A stretch of DNA of 45,558 nucleotides from Promethearchaeota archaeon. Lineage in GTDB: Archaea > Asgardarchaeota > Lokiarchaeia > Sigyniarchaeales > Promethearchaeaceae. Below the pieces are notes generated by a model, which was not told where the DNA came from, ran no database searches, and saw nothing but the letters and a program-made list of their open reading frames with translations. Numbering within the stretch: position 1 is the first letter of the stretch; each line of letters opens with the position of its first letter. A program made the translations under genes and the position numbers. Shown one piece after another: positions 12,922 through 39,316 of the stretch. The DNA is taken from NCBI GenBank assembly GCA_018238965.1, contig JABCSI010000003.1:1-45558 (forward strand). Direction: 5' to 3'.

Positions 12922-13875
12922 CTATTTTTTAGAATCGCCTAGTTTAGTTGCCAAACGATAGGTTTTTTGAGTGACATTCAAATAAAGCTCCCGAAAAACT
13001 TGCACGAATTCATCGGGCTTCGCTAAATTTGGCGCCAGTCCCAAACTGTCTAAAGTACTTATGTCTTTCCCCGGTTTGGAGAATCGAAATCCGATTTTAT
13101 AGGGGGAATTGGCCTGAATAAAGGCCGAAGGGTCCAAATCCTGAGAAGGTAAAATAGGGACATCGAAGGTGGCAGATGCGATATTGATCATCTTCCGGAT
13201 CTTTTTTACCGAAATGGAGATAGGTTCTTTTGCACACGAGCGCGATTCTTTAATCAAAGCCAAAATTTCATTTCGGTCTTTCCCACGGAGTTTTAACAAG
13301 AGAAAGGGATCAAAATCGAATACACGGGCGACATACAAAATAGTAGCAGCAATATGTTTGCATGGAATCGCTTGGTCAGGACATGAACACGACGCATTCA
13401 AATCCGAGGTGCGACTGGGAAACAATTCGACTCCTGCTTCTTCAAAAAGTGTTTCGAAATCTTCTGGAATTGTATTTTCCAAGAGTTTGATGGTATAATA
13501 GGCCTTTTCGGCAATGTTATTACTGATTCGCTCCCATTCCGATTCGGAAAGTGTATCGAACATCACTTTTACTCTATAGGGTGTAGGGGCGGTCCCTTGC
13601 ACAGTTGCGAAAATCATCCCCGGAGTGATGGTTATATTTGATACACGTTCTTCTTGGGAATACCGGATTCCCCGTTGCATTCGGAAGGGGCGACCGTATT
13701 CTAACATCTGGTTAACCCATTTCCTTCCCCAATTAGATTGGGCAAAACCATGTAATTCACGTTTGATTTCTTGAACTTCCTTACGGACCTGTTGATGATT
13801 TCGTTTTTTGTGACTGGATTTTTGAAAATTTTTTCGATTGTAGGGAGTTTTTCGGGGAGTTGGTCTGCGGTCCAT
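12922..13875 (-). CDS. SWIM zinc-finger protein, partner of the SNF2 ATPase
   Basis: The SWIM motif is C163-x-C165-x6-C172-x-H174, binding one zinc and expected to contact DNA or protein. The N-terminal 40 residues are strongly basic. Its ATG at 13875 abuts the stop codon of the SNF2 gene (TTA complement at 13876-13878), with a GGAGGT ribosome binding site 7 nt upstream inside the SNF2 coding end, so the two are translated together. SWIM proteins next to SNF2-family ATPases are a recurrent pair in archaea and bacteria. The C-terminal 130 residues match nothing I know. Confidence 0.88.
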   Translation of the reverse strand: MDRRPTPRKTPYNRKNFQKSSHKKRNHQQVRKEVQEIKRELHGFAQSNWGRKWVNQMLEYGRPFRMQRGIRYSQEERVSNITITPGMIFATVQGTAPTPYRVKVMFDTLSESEWERISNNIAEKAYYTIKLLENTIPEDFETLFEEAGVELFPSRTSDLNASCSCPDQAIPCKHIAATILYVARVFDFDPFLLLKLRGKDRNEILALIKESRSCAKEPISISVKKIRKMINIASATFDVPILPSQDLDPSAFIQANSPYKIGFRFSKPGKDISTLDSLGLAPNLAKPDEFVQVFRELYLNVTQKTYRLATKLGDSKK

Positions 13876-16800
13876 TTAATATACCTCCGTGGTTTGGGAA
13901 AGAGAAAAGAGTTCCTTGAGTTCTTCATTCGATAGGGAAGTGATCCATGTTTCATCCTTGGAGCTGAGGATTGCTCCGGCCAGCGCGCGCTTTTCTTCTA
14001 ACATTTGGTCGATTTTTTCTTCAATGGTTCCCGTTGCAATGAATTTATACACATTAACACGTTGAGTTTGGCCGATTCGGTATGCACGGTCCGTGGCTTG
14101 ATCCTCCACTGCGGGATTCCACCAACGATCATAATGGAATACCGTTGAAGCCTGTGTCAAATTTAATCCGGTCCCTCCTGCCCGAAGAGAAAGGATTAAT
14201 ATGGGCATGGAATCATACGCTGTCGATTGAAATTCATCCACCAAAGTGCGCCGACGTTTGATTGGAACTCCTCCGTGAAACCAGCCGATGGGAACTTTGT
14301 ATTTTGTTTCCAGAAAGGATTTCAAAAGATCTCCCATTTGTTTAAATTGTGTGAAGATAAGAATTTTTTCACCCTCTTCCAGGATTTCTTCCACCATTTC
14401 CGATAAGCGTTCCAATTTCTGCGAACCGTGGAGAAATTGTTTATATCCAATTTGATGGGTATCCCCAGAATCAAGTTGATCAGATGGAGCACTTGGGGTT
14501 GATGGGCCAGATGTGGTAGATGGTGTAGGTGAGGTTCCCACAGGAAGGATTTCAACTACGTCATCGGGCTTGTGCTGGAATTGTACGGGATGGTTGCAAA
14601 TTTGTTTAGTGAAGGTGAGTAATTTCAGAATTAGACCCCGGCGCTTAACATCCTCAGCGGGATATTGTTCCATTTCTTCGAGTGTGTCATGGACTACTTG
14701 GGTATAAAGTGCCGCTTGGGGGGGACTCAATTCCAAGTAAATCTTGATTTCATTCTTTTCTGGGAGATCCTGAATAATATTTTTATCGGTTTTTAGACGT
14801 CTGAGAATAAAGGGGGCGATAAATTTTTTGAGGCGTTCTGCACTTTGTTCGTCGTGATACCGTTCAATCGGTAAGATGAACTTTCTCTGAAATATGGCAC
14901 GTTTTCCTAGCAAGCCCGGATTGAGAAATTCAAAGAGAGTCCACAATTCTATCAATCGATTTTCGATCGGAGTTCCACTTAGTGCAATCCGAAACTGGGA
15001 ATTTAAGCGAAGGATCGCTTTGGTTTTCTGCGCTTGGTAGTTCTTGATATTTTGGGATTCATCCAACACCACTCCTGCGAAGGAGATCGCTTCCAAAAAG
15101 TCGATATCATTACGCAGGGTACCATATGTGGTTAGAATAACAGTATGTTTGTTCGAAAATGTCTTGACTGCCTCTAATTCCTTGAGACGATCGGGACCAT
15201 GATGCGTAAGTACCTTCAATGAGGGTGCAAATTTGCGAAGTTCTCGGCCCCAGTTAAACAAAACGGAAGTGGGACAGACGATTAGGATCGAACCTAAAGC
15301 ATGGGGTACATCTTCTTGTCGTTTTTGTAAAAAGGCTATTACTTCTATTGTTTTACCTAAGCCCATATCATCCGCAAGACAAATCCCAAAATTCAACCGG
15401 GTCATATGGGTGAGCCATGTTAGCCCTTTTTGTTGATATTGACGCAATGTGCCTTGAAAATCAAAAGGATCTGCTATGGGAACAAATTCATCGATATGTT
15501 CCAATTGGTGAATGATTCCACTGAAATTGCCCTCTACCACGACTTCATACTGAGTTGCTCCTTCACCAAGTTTAACTCCTCCGACCATCCCCAATTTTAG
15601 CGCTTCAGTGTACGGAATATCCCCCTTTATTTTCGTATTTGCCTCAAAAATCGGGCGAAGATTTTCCATATCTTCCTGATCCACCAAGATCCAATGATCT
15701 CTCCAAAATATAAGCGGTTCCCGAGCATTGGCTAATTCTAGAAATTCCTTTTCGGTTAAGGTTTTACCCTCAATAGTACCTTCCCATCTGAATTCCAGCA
15801 TTGAATCCATATCAAATAATGCTTGGGGAGAACCCACACCTCCATCGCCGCTTGATCTTAGTGATGAATTTGTGCTCACCGTCGATTTTCCGGTAGATTG
15901 TTTGGGTTGAATCACTAACCGTGCACTGAGCCTTTGCTGTCCCTGTGCGGCGAATTCTTCGGGTAAAACTACATTAAATCCCGCTTGGATCAGCAGATAC
16001 ATCGAATAGCGCATGAAATCCATGACTTCTCCCGCCTTCAATTTGACTTGGGAAGGGGCTTTTCCGAATAGTGCCCGCTTAATTGGTGGGAAGAGTTTGG
16101 AGGATGTTCCCAATGCCCGTAATGTATCTTCCTGTAATCCGCTTTCATCATCACAGACATTGGCATATTCTTCGTGATGGGTGAGAATTCCTCCCCACAA
16201 TTCCTGGAGTGGGATGAAATAATTCGGATCGTGGAGAGGTTGGAGATAAAAACCCAAATTCCAATCAGATTTTTCAGATTTGGGATATTCTAAGCGAAAA
16301 GTGAATGAGAGTCCGTAGGAAAAGGAAAAACCCTGGATGTTTTGGACCCAATTCCGTAAAATCCCCGGAATGGGAGTATCACAAAATCGGGTGACTTGAA
16401 ATTCACGGTGCTTACTGATACAAGCATGTAAAAAGCGCAGATCCCATGGAGTATTCGGATCCTCAGAGCAGGCATTTTTCATTTCCTCCGGTGCATATTC
16501 ATACAAAGCGGAAAACTTGGAGAGAAATTTCTTACTGAGGGATTCCCGAATCATATAGTCTCCGATTGTATCTATATATTCCACGAATAGATAGGAAGGA
16601 TGCCATAAACCCGAAGTTTGATATTCTTTTACGTTTCCATGGGGAGGAATGATATTTATTGGTATATTGTACCCGCTCCAGGAAGCCTGGCGTAATAAAG
16701 TGTTAAAGCGTTGATGATCTAACTGGGTTTTAAGAATTATTTTCCATTGTCCTTCGAATATGTTAGCCTCAACATCACGAAGCATCGGAACAAAATTACC

Positions 16801-17349
16801 TCGAGCGAGTAATTCCATGGTAAATTTAGTCAAATACGCCCATAATTTGATAGATTCAGAATATTGTAAGATTTTTTTTGTACGATCTTTGCTCTCTATG
16901 ATTTGGAGTTGAAACAGGAGTTTGATAGCAGGGGGCAGGGGGATGATTTTTGCCAAGGTTTTCCTCAATTGAAAAAATTTCTGCTTAGGGAATTCGATCG
17001 GAGAGTGCTCATCTTGAAGTTCACTTAATGAAGGATTGATATGTTGCATTTGATAAGGATGCGCCAGAAGAAGTTCACATGTGAGTAATTTTTTCGCAGG
17101 TATATCGGGGAAATAGACCCCCATCTTCTGTTCCAATTGATTTAGAGGCGAGATGACCTTATTTTCCTGTTCATTTTCAGTTTCTTTTTTAGCTACTTCA
17201 TTCAAACCATCCTCTAAATCAGGGTTTGAAAGCCACATTATGAAGAAACTGGATTTTTTTGGGGGCATGGATGCTTTCGTCAACAGTTGAAATTGCGATG
17301 CATCTTTGGTCCAATATTTTGCTGTAACATAGGTTAATTGTAAATTCAT
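13876..17349 (-). CDS. SNF2-family ATPase (Swi2/Snf2 helicase)
   Basis: This is a large SF2 translocase of about 1157 aa. The ATPase core fills the C-terminal half: DDMGLGKT near residue 660, DESQ (Walker B, instead of DEGH) near 762, SGTPIENR, LILSLRAGGTGLNLT, and motif VI DRAYRIGQ near 1090. The N-terminal ~600 residues are a long accessory region, as in bacterial and archaeal SNF2 proteins of the SSO1653/HelZ type. A Thr/Ser/Pro-rich insert lies between the two RecA lobes (TPSTTSGPSTPSAPSD). It probably moves along duplex DNA to remodel protein-DNA complexes. The frame continues to a TTG at 17370, but the ATG at 17349, with a weak AT-rich box about 27 bp upstream, is preferred. Confidence 0.93.
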   Translation of the reverse strand: MNLQLTYVTAKYWTKDASQFQLLTKASMPPKKSSFFIMWLSNPDLEDGLNEVAKKETENEQENKVISPLNQLEQKMGVYFPDIPAKKLLTCELLLAHPYQMQHINPSLSELQDEHSPIEFPKQKFFQLRKTLAKIIPLPPAIKLLFQLQIIESKDRTKKILQYSESIKLWAYLTKFTMELLARGNFVPMLRDVEANIFEGQWKIILKTQLDHQRFNTLLRQASWSGYNIPINIIPPHGNVKEYQTSGLWHPSYLFVEYIDTIGDYMIRESLSKKFLSKFSALYEYAPEEMKNACSEDPNTPWDLRFLHACISKHREFQVTRFCDTPIPGILRNWVQNIQGFSFSYGLSFTFRLEYPKSEKSDWNLGFYLQPLHDPNYFIPLQELWGGILTHHEEYANVCDDESGLQEDTLRALGTSSKLFPPIKRALFGKAPSQVKLKAGEVMDFMRYSMYLLIQAGFNVVLPEEFAAQGQQRLSARLVIQPKQSTGKSTVSTNSSLRSSGDGGVGSPQALFDMDSMLEFRWEGTIEGKTLTEKEFLELANAREPLIFWRDHWILVDQEDMENLRPIFEANTKIKGDIPYTEALKLGMVGGVKLGEGATQYEVVVEGNFSGIIHQLEHIDEFVPIADPFDFQGTLRQYQQKGLTWLTHMTRLNFGICLADDMGLGKTIEVIAFLQKRQEDVPHALGSILIVCPTSVLFNWGRELRKFAPSLKVLTHHGPDRLKELEAVKTFSNKHTVILTTYGTLRNDIDFLEAISFAGVVLDESQNIKNYQAQKTKAILRLNSQFRIALSGTPIENRLIELWTLFEFLNPGLLGKRAIFQRKFILPIERYHDEQSAERLKKFIAPFILRRLKTDKNIIQDLPEKNEIKIYLELSPPQAALYTQVVHDTLEEMEQYPAEDVKRRGLILKLLTFTKQICNHPVQFQHKPDDVVEILPVGTSPTPSTTSGPSTPSAPSDQLDSGDTHQIGYKQFLHGSQKLERLSEMVEEILEEGEKILIFTQFKQMGDLLKSFLETKYKVPIGWFHGGVPIKRRRTLVDEFQSTAYDSMPILILSLRAGGTGLNLTQASTVFHYDRWWNPAVEDQATDRAYRIGQTQRVNVYKFIATGTIEEKIDQMLEEKRALAGAILSSKDETWITSLSNEELKELFSLSQTTEVY

Positions 17350-17370
17350 TATTTGAATTCTCCCAACCAA

Positions 17371-27249: not shown

Positions 27250-28482
27250 TCAAAACATTTGTACGAGTTTAAATCCACAGACCTTGCATATGTGGTCGTC
27301 TAATTTTTCAAAACAGTGCATATGGTAGATTGCATTACACATGCGATTTCCACATTTGACAACTTTTTCGTCATCCTCGAAAATATCCGAGCATACAGGA
27401 CAAGCTGAATAAAGCGCCGTTTCTCCAAGAGTTCCCGCAAGAACTGGTTGTACATTAACTGTTTTGGTGTCTGTTTTCTGAAAATTTTCTTTCTGAATTT
27501 CTTTTTTGAGATTTTTGTGCATCTGGACCGCAGTTTGAACCGATGCAGGAATTTTCAATAAATACAAACAGTGGACACAGCGGAAAATAGTTCCATCGCC
27601 ACCCTTATTTTGATTTTTGGCCCACTGGCTTGCACAGCTGTAGTGCATGGGTGTGGCGCAGTTTGGACACATTCCCCCGCTGATACTGAAATCCGATTTC
27701 GAAAATGGGTCGTTGGCCTGGAAACAGATCGAACATTTTTCATAGGATTTGGTTCCCCGCAGCCTAGAAATTAGCTCTTTTTGATCCTGTGACCCTTTGC
27801 TCATTTCTGCTTCGGAAAGTAATGTTTTTGCGATTTTTTTTTGAATCGCTTGTGGGATGCGGCTCTTGGAACCATCTGATTTACTACCAGGTGGAAGGAA
27901 ATTACCCACGGCCAAATCCCGAGTAAATCGCTGCATCGCATCTAAATTATTTGTATGGGTGAATTTCCCGCTGGTGATTTCTGAAACTTGACGCAAAATA
28001 TTATAGGCTTGCACTTCTCCCAGGAGCATGCAATCAATTTTCATTCCCAGTTGTTTGGCCAAAGATGCCATTTTGTTCGGGTCAATTTTGGTAGGAGTGT
28101 TGGTTCCATCCGAGATCAGAAGAATTCGGGGGATTCGGGCACCATTTGTACGTATGTCCTCGATTAAGATTTTAATTGCCAATCCTAATCCATCACCCAA
28201 CGCAGAAGTGCCTCCACAAGCAAGATTGGAGAAATAATCCTCAAAATCCCCGTATTGTGCTCCATCGGCCATATCGAATACTTTTTCGGCTGTGGATCGA
28301 ATCACAACTAATCCAAATGCAGAAGATGCCCCATATTCTTTATCATTATTGGTACGTGCCTCAATAAAGTCCAAAATCGCTTGTTTACTTGCATCCAATC
28401 GATTTGGGCTGTAATCTGTTCTGAACATCGATCGAGATGCATCCAAAAGAATGACAATGGCTTCCGAGATCATATCTGGCAT
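27250..28482 (-). CDS. vWA-domain protein with two C4HC3 (RING/PHD-like) zinc fingers
   Basis: From the ATG at 28482 the protein has 410 aa. Residues 7-190 form a von Willebrand A domain with an intact MIDAS metal site: DASRS (14-18), T92 and D125. Two fingers follow: C250, C253, C272, C275, H280, C283, C302, C305, and C361, C364, C377, C382, H387, C390, C399, C402. Both are C4-H-C3. The order vWA then fingers, and DASRSM with a following PNRL, recall the TFIIH subunit Ssl1/p44, though PNRL is also common in bacterial vWA proteins. A ubiquitin-ligase or scaffold role is possible. The frame extends to a GTG at 28491. It is followed after 3 bp by the broken dehydrogenase. Confidence 0.85.
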   Translation of the reverse strand: MPDMISEAIVILLDASRSMFRTDYSPNRLDASKQAILDFIEARTNNDKEYGASSAFGLVVIRSTAEKVFDMADGAQYGDFEDYFSNLACGGTSALGDGLGLAIKILIEDIRTNGARIPRILLISDGTNTPTKIDPNKMASLAKQLGMKIDCMLLGEVQAYNILRQVSEITSGKFTHTNNLDAMQRFTRDLAVGNFLPPGSKSDGSKSRIPQAIQKKIAKTLLSEAEMSKGSQDQKELISRLRGTKSYEKCSICFQANDPFSKSDFSISGGMCPNCATPMHYSCASQWAKNQNKGGDGTIFRCVHCLYLLKIPASVQTAVQMHKNLKKEIQKENFQKTDTKTVNVQPVLAGTLGETALYSACPVCSDIFEDDEKVVKCGNRMCNAIYHMHCFEKLDDHICKVCGFKLVQMF

Positions 28483-28504
28483 GGGGGTCACTTCAAGAAC
28501 TTCG

Positions 28505-28518: not shown

Positions 28519-28614
28519 AACCAAACGGGCTTAAAGGATTTTTTTTCCCCTTGGGGCATTTTTAAAAAACAAAATTTTTGAGGAATGTCAAATTAATCTT
28601 TTTTGAATGTAATT

Positions 28615-29769
28615 ATGGATCCAACACCAGATAATTTTATTGTGAAAATTCAATCCTTCTTCCAGGAAGGAGTAGATTTCAGCGCTATTAAAAATCCGAT
28701 GGATATCTTGGATTTACCCTTTAGTACATTAAAATCATGGGAATCTCAATGGGGATCCTTCTTTGAGGATTTAGACATGGTCTCCATCAAAGATTTAGCC
28801 CAATACCGAGAACCCTCTTCATTTGAGGGGATTGATCCCGAAGAAACCAATAAATTGGCAATGATTTGTGAATTGATCTTCTGGCATATTACCCAAATTG
28901 CAGAACATGGGGAAAGGAAAAAAAAAATCGTCTTCTTGGGTTTAGGCAATGCAGGAAAAACATCCGCATTAACCGCATTATCGGAAAAATATTCTGCCAT
29001 CAAGGAGTTACTTCCAACCCGTGGACTACAACGTCAAAATACCAATATTTTAGGTTATGACTTAATGGCGTTTGATTTTGGAGGACAGTCCCAATATCGC
29101 GACCAATATTTTGATAAAGCTGATATGTACTTTACTGGAAGCGACATGATGATCTATATCATTGATATTCAAGATTCCGATAAATATGATGATTCGATTG
29201 CATATTATCAAAAAATTATTTCCACTTTTGAGTCATTCAACCTATTTATCCCCATTCTAGTAGTTTTCTCAAAGTTTGACCCAGATATTGCCAATGACGA
29301 ACATTTGAATCAGCAAAGGATTACATTAATCGATAAAATTGATGCTGCCTCTTCCAAATTTGATGTAGGATATTCAACCAGTTCAATTTACGAACGTAAT
29401 TCAATTGAAAATCTCTTTTCCTTGGCGTTAAAGAAAATTTCGACCTCGGGAGGAGTGATTCAAGAATTATTGAAAAGCTATGTCAAGGATATCAATGCTC
29501 GAGCATGCGTATTAATTTCTTCCACTGGTTTAGTTTTCGGCTCCTATGGTGAAACGCATCAAGAAGAAGAAATGCTCAAGAATTCCGCGGCTTATCTGCA
29601 AAATCTATATCTTTTTCACCTCACTACGGGGCTACAAAAAGAAGATTTTTATGAATTAAATTACAAACGAAATAATCTGTGGGTCTTGACAACCGATTTA
29701 CGTGAAGAAGTGATAGGGATTTATAAATTCCGTGATGAATTGATGCCCCTTATTGACATGTTTCTCTAA
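28615..29769 (+). CDS. Rag/Arf-like small GTPase with C-terminal roadblock-like domain
   Basis: From the ATG at 28615 (the TTG at 28603 is less likely) the protein has 384 aa. Residues 1-100 are a helical extension. The G domain has G1 GLGNAGKTS (109-117), a PT-R-G switch I (T135), G3 DFGGQ (154-158) and G4 SKFD (219-222). GLxNAGKT and DxGGQ are Arf-family hallmarks. Residues 290-384 look like a roadblock/longin domain (ACVLISSTGLVFGSYGE, NNLWVLTTD), as at the C-terminus of Rag/Gtr GTPases. Such GTPases are abundant in Asgard archaea and are thought to regulate membranes or nutrient signalling. There is no lipid-anchor motif. It is divergent from the vWA gene. Confidence 0.85.
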   Translation: MDPTPDNFIVKIQSFFQEGVDFSAIKNPMDILDLPFSTLKSWESQWGSFFEDLDMVSIKDLAQYREPSSFEGIDPEETNKLAMICELIFWHITQIAEHGERKKKIVFLGLGNAGKTSALTALSEKYSAIKELLPTRGLQRQNTNILGYDLMAFDFGGQSQYRDQYFDKADMYFTGSDMMIYIIDIQDSDKYDDSIAYYQKIISTFESFNLFIPILVVFSKFDPDIANDEHLNQQRITLIDKIDAASSKFDVGYSTSSIYERNSIENLFSLALKKISTSGGVIQELLKSYVKDINARACVLISSTGLVFGSYGETHQEEEMLKNSAAYLQNLYLFHLTTGLQKEDFYELNYKRNNLWVLTTDLREEVIGIYKFRDELMPLIDMFL

Positions 29770-34156: not shown

Positions 34157-35227
34157 TTAATACTTGATATATCTCTTTATTATCCTCTGTATCACCCATA
34201 CGATCTTATTAAGAAGGGGAAATAGAAACATGGCACTGATTACCAATAGTCCATATCGGAGTCCCTCATTTATAATAAAATCGGGAAATTGCGAGAAAAT
34301 CGCATATAGTGTAGCATATATTCCAATATTTACAAGAATCAAAACAATTACCCAAATTATTTTATGATTGTAGCCCTCTAGGGCTCCTTTCCCTGGTTCA
34401 GATGGATTAAATTTTAGATCCAAATCAAATATAACAGAAAAACTCGCTAAAATCAAAGTTGGAGTACATAAATCCTGAATATGCTTAACCAAGTCATCTG
34501 GATAGATAATTGTTAAAAAGATAGTTCCTGTAATCCACATAATTAAGGATACACCAAATCCGAAGAAAGATTGAGTTTTCGATTTAGTATAAAAACTTCG
34601 AAATTTGGCTTCTCCTAAAACAACCAGCGATAATAATGTTAACCCTACTATATATCCGGCTATAATGTCTTCAAAATAATTTACCCCTATAATTAGACGG
34701 GATAACGGGATAGCTATAATCAGGAAAATCGAAAAAATCCAAATCCATAATTTTTCTTTCGAATCTTGAAAATCCTTTAATTGAAACAAAATAAACCCCC
34801 AAAAGACGACAATTGTTATTGTATACCCGGAAGGAAATCCAAATCCTTCCTGAATGGGCTTACCTCCAACAATATTAGATATCGGGCGAAGAATTCGAAA
34901 AAAATCTTTGAGAAATTGTGAAAGAAACAAGGCTAAGATGGTCGCTAGAAAAACGTGTTTTGCTACTTTTTTATCGTATAAGTGATAAACGACGATAAAA
35001 TATATGAAAAAAGCATATGGGGATCCCAATCTTGTCAGTATAAAGAAGAAATAAAAGAAAAATTGATTTTCGATTAATAAGAATTGGTGGTATTGTGAAT
35101 CTGCAAAAAAAATTCCTAAAAGCAATAATCCAATTGAAATTCCAATCATTAGGAGGAGGAATTGAATATATTTTTCACGATTCAGGTGAGTTTCCAATTT
35201 TTTCCAGTCTAATTCACGACGCATCAT
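34157..35227 (-). CDS. PAP2-fold membrane protein lacking catalytic histidines
   Basis: There are about nine membrane helices. The phosphatidic-acid-phosphatase motifs are at the right places but altered. Motif 1 is intact (K107-x6-R114-P115). Motif 2 reads PSGY (132-135) where PSGH is required. Motif 3 reads SR-x5-N183-x3-D187, with the nucleophile His replaced by Asn. So it has the fold without the phosphatase chemistry. An extra ~100-residue membrane tail follows. It lies 12 bp after the DUF5682-like gene, the third gene of a minus-strand operon, and may act as a membrane sensor or anchor for it. Confidence 0.75.
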   Translation of the reverse strand: MMRRELDWKKLETHLNREKYIQFLLLMIGISIGLLLLGIFFADSQYHQFLLIENQFFFYFFFILTRLGSPYAFFIYFIVVYHLYDKKVAKHVFLATILALFLSQFLKDFFRILRPISNIVGGKPIQEGFGFPSGYTITIVVFWGFILFQLKDFQDSKEKLWIWIFSIFLIIAIPLSRLIIGVNYFEDIIAGYIVGLTLLSLVVLGEAKFRSFYTKSKTQSFFGFGVSLIMWITGTIFLTIIYPDDLVKHIQDLCTPTLILASFSVIFDLDLKFNPSEPGKGALEGYNHKIIWVIVLILVNIGIYATLYAIFSQFPDFIINEGLRYGLLVISAMFLFPLLNKIVWVIQRIIKRYIKY

Positions 35228-35239
35228 GTTAAGTCAAGT

Positions 35240-37273
35240 TTATGATTTTTTCTTATGGATGTATTTATGTGCTATATTTCTCCGATCTTTACCAGCTAAA
35301 ATGTGTAGATTTCGTAGATTTCGAAGACTCTCTGGGTTAAATCTACTAAGTGGTAAGAAAATAATCTTAATATTAAATTTTGCGGCAATGTTAAAAAAAA
35401 TTTGCCTTGGTTTGACCATAGCTACATAGGTTACTAAATTCTTTTGGGCAAAGAGTAGAGCTGCAAGAAGTAAGCGTTCGGATTTAGTCTCAATAAAGGG
35501 ATAATCCTCCTTAAACTCTTTCGCCCAAATGTTGGGAATGCCCCGAGGTGGGAAAAAGGAAGCAACCCCTCCCAATTCAATACGTGATATACCTGGTCCA
35601 ACTAAAATAATTCCTGGATAAGTGCTATAAAAAGCCAAATCACTCTCTTTTGCATGTTCTGCATACCAATTCATTTCATAGGGGAATTTCTCATCCGGTC
35701 CTGAATCCTCATCGAAAATTATTACGACACAATCCACTGAACCCTTTATGGCGATTTCTTCTCGAACATAAATTTCGTGATTTATGGGCCAATTCCGAAT
35801 AGTCTCTCTAAAATCGATCCCATCCATCAAAGTCGAAGAAAATTTATGAATTTTCACGAAATCATCCTTTAGTATCGCCAGAGTCCTTTCGCGAATATGT
35901 TGAAAGTAATTTTCCTCATAAATATCTTCAGGTAAATGAGAGACCAGGCTCCAACGCCCCTTGTTCCATTCTTTTCTCCATTCACCTTCTGATTTTTCTT
36001 TGGGACGTTCCTTTAGGGGTAATTTAAGTTGGTTCAATTTCATGGGAATACTTCTACGAAGTGTGAAATATTTTCCATGTAGAAATATCCCACGATCTGT
36101 AAGATCGAGAGTTGGTATTTCTGCAGGATCTTTGGAGAATGGATAAAATGTTGCTTCTTCCCAGACAATCCAAGCAAAGTCATCATTAATTATTGATTTT
36201 GCAGCCAACACAATTTCAAATAAATCCGGTTTAATCCTATCTTGCACTAGCGGTAGATTCCGAAGAAATTGAAATAAGGATTTGAGTTTATGGAGACTGA
36301 TCGTTTCATCATATTCCAATTGATATCGTTCAATGGCCCCAGTGTATATATTTTTAAATCCCGAAAAAACTTCAAATTTTTCTACAAAAAACTCCCTTCC
36401 TTCGGGTAATTCATCATCATCCCACTGTAATTTCTGGTGTTGACGGAATAATTCATATTGAAAACAGATATTCGGCGTTTCTAGGATGAGTTTTGGAATA
36501 TCTTCCTGGCGAATATTGAATATTTCAGATTGAATCTCAGTACTGAAGGAAGTTAGATCGGGATTGGCCACATCTTTTTCCAAAATCAATCGAACACTCT
36601 CCCAATGATTCATCCCGATAATAACTAATATGGTGGAGTCTGGGTTTTCTCGCATTAGTTCATTTAAACGGGACGCCATGTATAAATTGCGAAGTTCATC
36701 CAAATCTTGAGAACTCTGCATCCATTGTTCAGCATCTTTTCCAATAGGTGGTGTTTCCACTGAAGATGATTCCAATTCATCCATGTCTTGAATTGATTTT
36801 TCAAATATTTCGCGCTCTTTCAAGATATATTCCTGATATCTTTGTTTAGCATATTTTTTAAAACCTAGATGTTCATTCATCAGAGAATATAGGTCATCCA
36901 GGCTCATGTAATTCAAAACATAAGAATCCGGGGTTGCTATTATTGGAGGATTGTAATTTTTAATAAACAGATCTATGAATTCTGTAGGAATTCCGTATTC
37001 ATCTGCCAACCGAAGACCTTCAATAAGAGAATCTGCTGGATTGATAGGAATATATAATTGTTTCTGAAGATACTCATCAAAATACAAAACTACAGATATT
37101 TTCGGAATTCGTTCAATTCCTTGTAATATTTTAGTTTTTAAATTATCAGGGAATTCAACTGCTAAAATATCCGGTACATTTTGTGAAAATATTCTTCGTA
37201 CCTCAAAAGTAAAATCAAGAGAATCATGATAGGTTGGGATCACGATGAGATTTTTAAAGGTTATCATTCCCAT
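35240..37273 (-). CDS. DUF5682/TraB-like protein in a MoxR operon
   Basis: From the ATG at 37273 the protein has 677 aa. The N-terminus follows the TraB/DUF5682 pattern: a strand with a conserved His (LIVIPTYHDSLDF), PDILAVEFP, then IPINPADSLIEGLRLADEYGIPTEFIDL and IVIGMNHW-like strands. In bacteria, as I recall it, DUF5682 genes sit beside MoxR ATPase and vWA genes; here the MoxR gene directly precedes and overlaps it by 20 bp. The C-terminal 300 residues are unfamiliar. The frame extends upstream to 37333, but those 20 residues lie inside the MoxR gene and are basic; ATGs at 37273 and 37267 are better. Function unknown. Confidence 0.55.
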   Translation of the reverse strand: MGMITFKNLIVIPTYHDSLDFTFEVRRIFSQNVPDILAVEFPDNLKTKILQGIERIPKISVVLYFDEYLQKQLYIPINPADSLIEGLRLADEYGIPTEFIDLFIKNYNPPIIATPDSYVLNYMSLDDLYSLMNEHLGFKKYAKQRYQEYILKEREIFEKSIQDMDELESSSVETPPIGKDAEQWMQSSQDLDELRNLYMASRLNELMRENPDSTILVIIGMNHWESVRLILEKDVANPDLTSFSTEIQSEIFNIRQEDIPKLILETPNICFQYELFRQHQKLQWDDDELPEGREFFVEKFEVFSGFKNIYTGAIERYQLEYDETISLHKLKSLFQFLRNLPLVQDRIKPDLFEIVLAAKSIINDDFAWIVWEEATFYPFSKDPAEIPTLDLTDRGIFLHGKYFTLRRSIPMKLNQLKLPLKERPKEKSEGEWRKEWNKGRWSLVSHLPEDIYEENYFQHIRERTLAILKDDFVKIHKFSSTLMDGIDFRETIRNWPINHEIYVREEIAIKGSVDCVVIIFDEDSGPDEKFPYEMNWYAEHAKESDLAFYSTYPGIILVGPGISRIELGGVASFFPPRGIPNIWAKEFKEDYPFIETKSERLLLAALLFAQKNLVTYVAMVKPRQIFFNIAAKFNIKIIFLPLSRFNPESLRNLRNLHILAGKDRRNIAHKYIHKKKS

Positions 37274-38612
37274 CGATCTCTTCTTCCCCGTCAGATGGTG
37301 TTTTAGGGGATTTTTTGTTTTTTTGTCCAACATGATTCTTTTTTTCTGAATTCTTTCGTTTTAAGAATTCCCTGATGATTTCATTTGGATCTTTAAAATT
37401 TTGGCCTTCATCTAAATCGTTATCAACGATGGGTTCTAAAATTCCTTTCCGATTTCTTCTGGTACGATTTTCTCTCTTTTCTTCATCTTCAAATATATGG
37501 ATCATATCATCTTCTTCATCATCATAATCCGAAGGTGACCTTTGATTTCGTCTATTCGAATTAGAGAAGAATAGATCTTCATCCCCTTCTTCATCTAAAG
37601 GTTCATCATCGTCTAATTCATCAGTTAAAATTTCATCGGAAATATCATCATCTTCTATCTTGTCGCTAAAGAAAATCGAATTAAGTCGATCAAAGATATC
37701 TTGGAATTGATGTTTGGAAGCAAATTCATCCAAATCCTTACCGATATAAAATTTGAAACCCTCTTGACCCAAAATCTGAAAAATTGCTTGTTGAAATAAT
37801 TTCCGATTGAAGGTGTTTTTATCTACCTTAGGTATGGATTTCTTTTTTTGGTAATTCTGATAATAATAATCTTCCATTTTTAGATAATAACGGCAAATAT
37901 TAATCCCATCCCTAACGGTGTAATCTCTATTCGCTTTATGGCTTTTCTGAAGAAACTTTACGGTAAAATCGATAATTTCTTTGGGTGCGAAGGGAAGATT
38001 GAATTCCAATATCTTAAATTCCTCTTCTTGATCTGGAAATTCGATGTAAATTTGTGGTTGAAGCCGACTGTGTATGTATTCTGGGATTTCAAATGTACTT
38101 GAATCTTCATTCATTGTTACACATATACGAAAATTAGGATGTGCTGGAATCTTTACACCGGCAATAATCGATTCGACATATCTTCGCTGATCCAACAATG
38201 GGGCTAGGGAGGCCCATGATTTTTCAGCCATTCGATTAGCTTCATCCAAAATACATACACCTCCTTCTAGCATGGCACTTACTAAGGAGCTGGCATGATA
38301 TTGTATTGAATGATTTTCTCCAATTACAGGCGTTATGAGTAAATCTTCTGGGCGTGTATCGACTGTGCATTGAAAAATATAAACTGGCAATCCCAACATT
38401 TTGGCAGCCGAATATGCCAACGTGGTTTTTCCTACACCTGGCTTTCCCAAGACTTGAGGATTCATTGAAATATCATTTTTCGGATCAACAATTGTCCATG
38501 CAGCTAATAATTGGGACATATACATTTCCCCACCGATCCATTGAAATTGGGTAATTTCATCTGGACTTCCCAAAATTAAGTCTACACCATCGATTTTTAC
38601 AATTTTCCTCAT
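37254..38612 (-). CDS. MoxR-type AAA+ ATPase with acidic C-terminal region
   Basis: Walker A GKPGVGKTT (56-64), Walker B CILDEAN (120-126), sensor 1 at MNED (167-170) and the arginine-finger loop EYIHSRLQP (178-186) define a MoxR/AAA_5 ATPase, usually a chaperone that loads metals or remodels partner proteins. After the ATPase lid (~290), residues 315-400 are extremely acidic and likely disordered. It is the first gene of a three-gene operon, overlapping the next by 20 bp. MoxR ATPases normally work with a vWA partner; none is adjacent, but one lies 9 kb away (27250-28482). Confidence 0.9.
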   Translation of the reverse strand: MRKIVKIDGVDLILGSPDEITQFQWIGGEMYMSQLLAAWTIVDPKNDISMNPQVLGKPGVGKTTLAYSAAKMLGLPVYIFQCTVDTRPEDLLITPVIGENHSIQYHASSLVSAMLEGGVCILDEANRMAEKSWASLAPLLDQRRYVESIIAGVKIPAHPNFRICVTMNEDSSTFEIPEYIHSRLQPQIYIEFPDQEEEFKILEFNLPFAPKEIIDFTVKFLQKSHKANRDYTVRDGINICRYYLKMEDYYYQNYQKKKSIPKVDKNTFNRKLFQQAIFQILGQEGFKFYIGKDLDEFASKHQFQDIFDRLNSIFFSDKIEDDDISDEILTDELDDDEPLDEEGDEDLFFSNSNRRNQRSPSDYDDEEDDMIHIFEDEEKRENRTRRNRKGILEPIVDNDLDEGQNFKDPNEIIREFLKRKNSEKKNHVGQKNKKSPKTPSDGEEEIDGNDNL

Positions 38613-38950: not shown

Positions 38951-39316
38951 TCAGCATTCGGCATCGGGCATGAGAACAATCCAGGATCCTTCAGGAATTG
39001 GAGTTCGCCAATCCGTCTCGACCGGAGCAGAAACTGAATCTGGGGGCGGTGTTCGGCATTCAACACCAACATCTCCATAAAAGAGCCCAGTTTCTGAATT
39101 CCAGAGCATTTGTAATGAACTTTTTATTCTTCGTTCCATAAAATCCAGAACATGGCTCCGTTTCGATCCAATGCGGTTTTCGAAATATTGTTTATCGATC
39201 CAATAGATGATGTCAATAATATTCGTTTGTGGGGAAATCTCAAAGGTTTGCGGCATTTTCACATATCTTCGTAATGAATGCCAACTGATCGTTGCTTGAA
39301 CTTCGATCTGTAGCAT
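38951..39316 (-). CDS. Possible beta-grasp (MoaD/Urm1-like) protein, 121 aa
   Basis: The order of elements suits a ubiquitin-like beta-grasp fold: strand MLQIEVQATISW, strand QTFEISP, helix NIIDIIYWIDKQYF, further strands (TGLFYGDVGVEC) and a final IPEGSWIVLMPDAEC, which recalls the LxDGDEVALxPP end of MoaD/ThiS/Urm1. The terminal GG needed for conjugation or sulfur transfer is absent; the chain ends in Cys. The assignment is tentative. The start is firm: a GGAGGTGG ribosome binding site precedes the ATG. Downstream neighbours on the same strand begin 338 bp away. Confidence 0.4.
   Translation of the reverse strand: MLQIEVQATISWHSLRRYVKMPQTFEISPQTNIIDIIYWIDKQYFENRIGSKRSHVLDFMERRIKSSLQMLWNSETGLFYGDVGVECRTPPPDSVSAPVETDWRTPIPEGSWIVLMPDAEC

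Follow-up and report, generated by a model that had tools for sequence, protein, structure and literature searches.

The window analysed here, the 45,558-nt contig C87 of an Asgard archaeal genome assembly (3.85 Mb, 374 contigs, 87% complete), carries three adjacent genes on its minus strand. The first (37254–38612) encodes a 452-aa MoxR AAA+ ATPase, P0003, the second (35240–37273, with its ATG at 37273) a 677-aa protein termed MID, and the third (34157–35227) a 356-aa PAP2-fold membrane protein. The MoxR and MID genes overlap by 20 bp and a 12-bp gap separates MID from the PAP2 gene, which verified, on the minus strand, the tight packing described in an earlier note on this DNA. Promoter-like matches occurred at chance level. 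Upstream of the MoxR gene lies a gene for a 121-aa protein (38951–39316, minus strand) with no Pfam match; a 66% identical copy occupies the same position in the genome G088 (locus L031), and the gene is absent from the other loci compared.

P0003 matched the Pfam families AAA_5 (E 2.4e-18) and AAA_3 (E 1.9e-7, above its cut-off). The Walker A (GKPGVGKTT), Walker B (LDEANR) and SRLQP motifs were intact and conserved and an arginine finger was present, placing the protein among the MoxR-type AAA+ ATPases. Its closest PDB relatives were NorQ and CbbQ; nevertheless, MoxR proteins of the P0003 type shared only 28–31% identity with CbbQ/NorQ-type proteins, and the best BLAST match to Asgard YehL-type proteins had an E-value of 0.015. 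MoxR proteins from other genomes encoding MID were 47–61% identical to P0003 in the sample aligned. In a tree containing several long outgroup branches, the MID-associated MoxRs formed a clade of their own with 100/100 support, separate from YehL, CbbQ/NorQ-like, RavA and other MoxR proteins.

The C-terminal residues 311–452 of P0003 (37257–37682) form an acidic low-complexity tail with 46 D/E and 22 K/R residues, which bore out the acidic tail noted earlier for the window's MoxR; it is not general to the group, an acidic tail being absent from many related MoxRs. The long form with the motif DPNEIIR(E/K)FL (DPNEIIREFL in P0003) was limited to MoxRs of the window's family; some other Loki-relative MoxRs had shorter acidic tails, and more distant Asgard MoxRs ended tailless. 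The motif, located near the end of the tail, was found only in the window and in G088, G090 and G091 (tails at L031, L032 and L033), the same four genomes that carry the linked PAP2 gene.

MID had nothing above cut-off in Pfam or NCBIfam, the sub-threshold matches being DUF5694 (E 0.0059) and TraB_PrgY_gumN (E 0.19). Profile–profile alignment by hhalign matched its residues 5–361 (36191–37261, minus strand) to the Asgard DUF5682 alignment with a probability of 98.8 (E 6e-17), compared to at most 1 for column-shuffled and unrelated controls, and aligned H16, E40, D101, R195, G220 and H223 of MID with residues invariant in Asgard DUF5682. The curated cut-off of DUF5682 (PF18934) was not reached: the model had no match in the window genome, and seven of 65 MIDs matched it weakly, with a best E-value of 4.9e-4. 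Judged by these comparisons, MID is not a DUF5682 member, and its N-terminal half is a remote relative of the TraB/DUF5682 fold with the same predicted pocket residues. The earlier description of the middle protein as TraB/DUF5682-like thus held for the N-terminal half and failed for the C-terminal half. Elsewhere in Asgards (G018, G028, G008, G015, G007, G035 and G206), a further relative was observed in proteins of ~970 aa that match DUF5682 with their first part (profile positions 4–471).

A structural model of MID rebuilt on 65 sequences, with the row from a plasmid record omitted, reached a pLDDT of 89.2 and a pTM of 0.81, and Foldseek matched it to a TraB family protein from a virus (E 6.2e-4, probability 1.00); an earlier model based on 28 sequences had produced no significant structure match. 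EreC and HopBA1, which both belong to the TIKI/Ere fold group (PMC6254334), were among the top PDB structure matches at non-significant scores. The modelled protein is predicted to contain the β-sheet core common to the TIKI/TraB/Ere fold. For the 2-His/2-Glu site of that group, H16, E40 and H223 were present in most MID sequences, with one of the two Glu residues assigned. One planctomycete clade (L187–L193, L196, L199 and L203) lacked E40, replaced by P (A in one member), and H223, its GxxH motif reading S/AxxD/E.

For the C-terminal half of MID (residues 375–677; 35243–36151, minus strand), neither Pfam nor sequence and structure searches of the PDB gave a match, and hhalign against DUF5682 returned a probability of about 1, compared to 98.8 for the N-terminal half; MID used as a profile query likewise found nothing among solved structures. 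This half is nearly invariant, with S445, E449, D450, E454, D484, G485, T491, E539, G559, H657 and R665 identical in all 66 sequences. The planctomycete clade that lost the pocket residues kept the C-terminal residues unchanged, and MoxR was present in 10 of its 10 sampled members. Because pocket-losing members retain both, the C-terminal domain appears, as far as conservation can tell, to be the obligatory part of MID.

The same residues bear on the main alternative that we considered, in which MID would be a client enzyme, either a hydrolase of the TIKI/TraB type or a metalloenzyme, and MoxR would mature or activate it, just as metalloenzymes are matured by other MoxR proteins. The match to the TraB fold, the retention in most sequences of H16, E40, D101, R195 and H223 aligned with invariant residues of DUF5682, and the insertion of metal into clients by MoxR systems (PMC13036017) are all in its favor. 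However, the planctomycete clade dispensed with E40 and H223 while keeping MID, its C-terminal residues and MoxR, and no linked third gene is available for the usual adaptor role. MID could be a client instead of a partner, and we regard this as unlikely, with a real share of the probability left to it.

The distribution of the two genes was followed across sampled, not exhaustive, sets of genomes, many of them incomplete. Relatives of MID were found in 50 of 228 genomes of the Asgard phylum and MoxRs of the same type in 52, comprising 49 of the 50 MID-positive genomes and three without MID (MoxR threshold E 1e-40; Fisher p 5e-45, treating genomes as independent and ignoring shared ancestry). 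G107 was the sole MID-positive Asgard genome lacking the MoxR, and its MID lies near a contig end. The MoxR gene was located upstream on the same strand, at most 1.3 kb from the aligned part of MID, in 35 of 49 Asgard genomes, and the 40 mapped Asgard loci showed it immediately preceding MID in lineages throughout the phylum. G115 apparently has two MoxR-MID pairs, on contigs C55 and C21 (L027). A diverged MID was sought in the MoxR-only genomes G086, G087, G105 and G236, including by profile, and was not found. Two genomes of a sister genus encode a MoxR that belongs to the same clade and evolves fast, without detectable MID (G087:C16:52661-53722 and G086:C125:2206-2943; L147 and L148), adjoining an acyl-CoA dehydrogenase gene.

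Bacterial members came to light in a contig scan with an eight-sequence MID alignment; the window's MID alone retrieved no relative and a 28-sequence alignment was too diverse. The profile-guided scan detected MID in Spirochaetota, Planctomycetota and one genome of Sumerlaeota, with 50 of 296 Spirochaetota and 49 of 343 Planctomycetota sampled being positive, and tblastn located a further MID on a plasmid of Neochlamydia, where it immediately follows a MoxR gene whose product is 59% identical to P0003. MoxR stood directly upstream of MID at about half of the mapped bacterial loci; often the two genes were unlinked, many of them far apart on one chromosome. In a bacterial test set, MoxR was present in 44 of 45 MID-positive genomes and in one of 35 MID-negative genomes (Fisher p 3e-20, again ignoring ancestry). 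The exception among the MID-positive bacterial genomes, G583, lacks MoxR, and its MID is short and divergent. No MID relative was found in phage records.

No third neighbor family recurred across phyla around the MID loci, some of the large shared ORF families detected there being overlaps with MID on the opposite strand. Since no other neighbor family recurs, MID is the only candidate partner of this MoxR. Recurrence of the pair across phyla indicates more than a chance arrangement, and the view that the conserved unit consists of MoxR and MID is well supported by gene content. The functional tie between MoxR and a DUF5682-like protein proposed earlier was supported, the N-terminal half being profile-related to DUF5682 and the co-occurrence almost perfect. 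In the MID tree, single branches set apart the Planctomycetota, the Loki/Hel group and the remaining Asgards, so MID seems to have been inherited mainly vertically within phyla. Pairwise distances of MoxR and MID showed only a moderate correlation (rho 0.47).

Patchy presence in the phylum and a plasmid copy would also fit a system directed against invaders, and MoxR ATPases are known to regulate some conflict systems (PMC7159879). Nevertheless, neither MID nor the PAP2 protein had a PADLOC match, the MoxR gave weak generic AAA matches only, the bacterial neighbors look like housekeeping genes, each phylum holds mostly one clade, and a recurrent third gene is missing; a role in defence therefore appears scarcely credible to us. 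A known anti-phage defence system was rejected because no system-specific PADLOC model matched.

The PAP2 protein matched PF01569 (E 1.9e-15) and retained the KX6RP motif. Its PSGH and SRx5Hx3D motifs had lost the catalytic histidines, PSGH reading PSGY and SRx5H reading SRx5N, which confirmed the replacements reported earlier; the operon copy in G088 has PSSI and SRx5N. Among 23 PAP2 proteins compared, the histidines were lost only in these two operon copies and both were kept in the other 21, including those encoded in the operons of the sister genus, with intact PSGH and SRx5Hx3D, and a second PAP2 copy of the window genome. Loss of the histidines is thus confined, among the sequences compared, to the window's genus. 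Asgards commonly have related PAP2 proteins, and a PAP2 gene 3′ of MID was found in the window, G088, G090 and G091 only, all of one family, out of the 40 loci mapped. The histidine-less copies formed long branches and did not group with their operon counterparts from the sister genus, a placement subject to long-branch effects; between two species of one genus they were 39% identical, compared to 61% for MID. The simple reading of these sequences would be addition at the level of the family followed by duplication and decay in the window's genus, and independent recruitment may be the alternative. Judging from gene content, the PAP2 protein is a local, lineage-specific add-on outside the core.

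From the three genes, the earlier note had suggested a chaperone or sensing system coupled to the membrane; in such a system the non-catalytic PAP2 protein would be the receptor. The tight operon in the window, the same gene order in G088, G090 and G091, and the confinement of the MoxR tail motif to these four genomes agree with such a three-part system. However, the neighborhood survey linked PAP2 to the pair in four genomes of one family and at no other mapped MID locus, which removed the trio as the conserved unit, and retention of the histidines in the operon-encoded PAP2 of the sister genus, an outcome that the earlier note had itself named as refuting its view, spoke, together with the fast evolution of the degenerate copies, against loss of catalysis by PAP2 as a trait of the system. 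We consider this reading improbable.

The earlier note had further pointed to bacterial MoxR/DUF5682 clusters with vWA and SWIM genes and to both types in the window. Both are indeed present, at other loci. The vWA protein (27250–28491, minus strand) has Ssl1-like and RING-type matches; its gene adjoins one for a Gtr1/RagA-type GTPase (28603–29769, plus strand), a neighborhood of eukaryote-like make-up. The SWIM gene (12922–13875) lies beside a gene for an SNF2 helicase with a DUF3670 domain, within an SNF2-SWIM locus at 12922–17370 on the minus strand. No vWA or SWIM linkage to the MoxR-MID pair recurred across the mapped loci, MID had no vWA match in Pfam, and no vWA partner is encoded with this MoxR. 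True MoxR-DUF5682-vWA clusters are separate, occurring elsewhere in Asgards (L071, where a DxSxS motif is visible in a 439-aa ORF) and as yehLMPQ in E. coli, and they co-exist with MID in some genomes, for example G155, G099, G108, G159 and G161. A divergent copy of the yehLMPQ type would account for a MoxR gene adjoining one for a protein with a DUF5682-like N-terminal half. It would leave unexplained the separate 100/100 clades of this MoxR and YehL, the absence of linked vWA and SWIM genes, a C-terminal half unrelated to that of DUF5682 proteins and the co-existence of the two systems, and we regard this already disfavored equation as very improbable.

We propose, with a probability of roughly 0.5, that MoxR and MID constitute a two-component ATP-driven remodelling machine, in which a ring of the distinct MoxR clade works with MID as its dedicated partner. 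In established MoxR systems, a vWA partner inserts into the hexameric ring and passes force to the client (PMC9976466, PMC13036017). MID would take the place held in other MoxR systems by the vWA proteins NorD, CbbO and ViaA; the ring would bind it, probably via the C-terminal domain, whose conservation is strict, and hydrolysis of ATP would move MID relative to a client that MID may recognise or process through its putative TraB-type pocket. In the window's genus, the degenerate PAP2 protein added to the operon could serve as a local membrane anchor or regulator. MoxR rings act via dedicated partners, and McrC offers a parallel for a partner that is not a vWA protein (PMC9976466, PMC13036017). 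Counted against the machine were the MoxRs without detectable MID in G086, G087 and G236 and the rho of only 0.47.

A wider proposal, to which we give somewhat less than even odds, is that the pair represents an undescribed class of MoxR machines spanning Asgard archaea, Planctomycetota, Spirochaetota, Sumerlaeota and Chlamydiota. In this class the vWA partner would be replaced by a protein that joins a TraB fold to a new C-terminal domain of nearly invariant sequence, and the ring would directly drive either a hydrolase of the TIKI type or a domain with a new fold. Published descriptions pair MoxR ATPases with vWA proteins, and the way in which the ring employs its partner is a mechanistic question; a conserved MoxR whose obligate partner is not a vWA protein, in archaea as well as bacteria, would provide an independent test. 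Such a MoxR would also offer a first route to the function of the DUF5682/TraB-like proteins encoded alongside MoxR genes; DUF5682 was not mentioned in the open-access literature searched. Where complete chromosomes carry the two genes apart, their functional link can be tested directly, and the recurrence of the pair in Asgard archaea and in several phyla of bacteria is suggestive of a widespread, as yet unstudied machine.

Among known systems, E. coli yehLMPQ and the Asgard MoxR-DUF5682-vWA clusters resemble the pair in having a MoxR gene followed by one whose product has a DUF5682-like N-terminal half; they differ in the MoxR clade, in the C-terminal half and in their vWA and SWIM genes, and MID stays below the DUF5682 cut-off. 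With the TraB/PrgY, TIKI, EreA, ChaN and HopBA1 group MID shares its N-terminal fold and the His/Glu residues of its putative pocket (PMC6254334), whereas the fused, conserved orphan C-terminal domain and the pairing with MoxR set it apart. The window's PAP2 protein has the fold and KX6RP motif of PAP2 phosphatases, but both catalytic histidines are replaced in it and in its G088 counterpart. McrB/McrC likewise combines an AAA+ ring with a non-vWA partner, which in McrBC sits in the ring pore (PMC9976466); McrBC is a restriction system, and no sequence relation to it was seen. NorQ/NorD, CbbQ/CbbO and RavA/ViaA share with the pair a MoxR-type AAA+ ATPase with intact ATPase motifs and one large dedicated partner. 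Unlike their partners, MID joins a TraB-type N-terminal half to an orphan C-terminal domain and has no Pfam vWA match, and its MoxR belongs to a separate clade.
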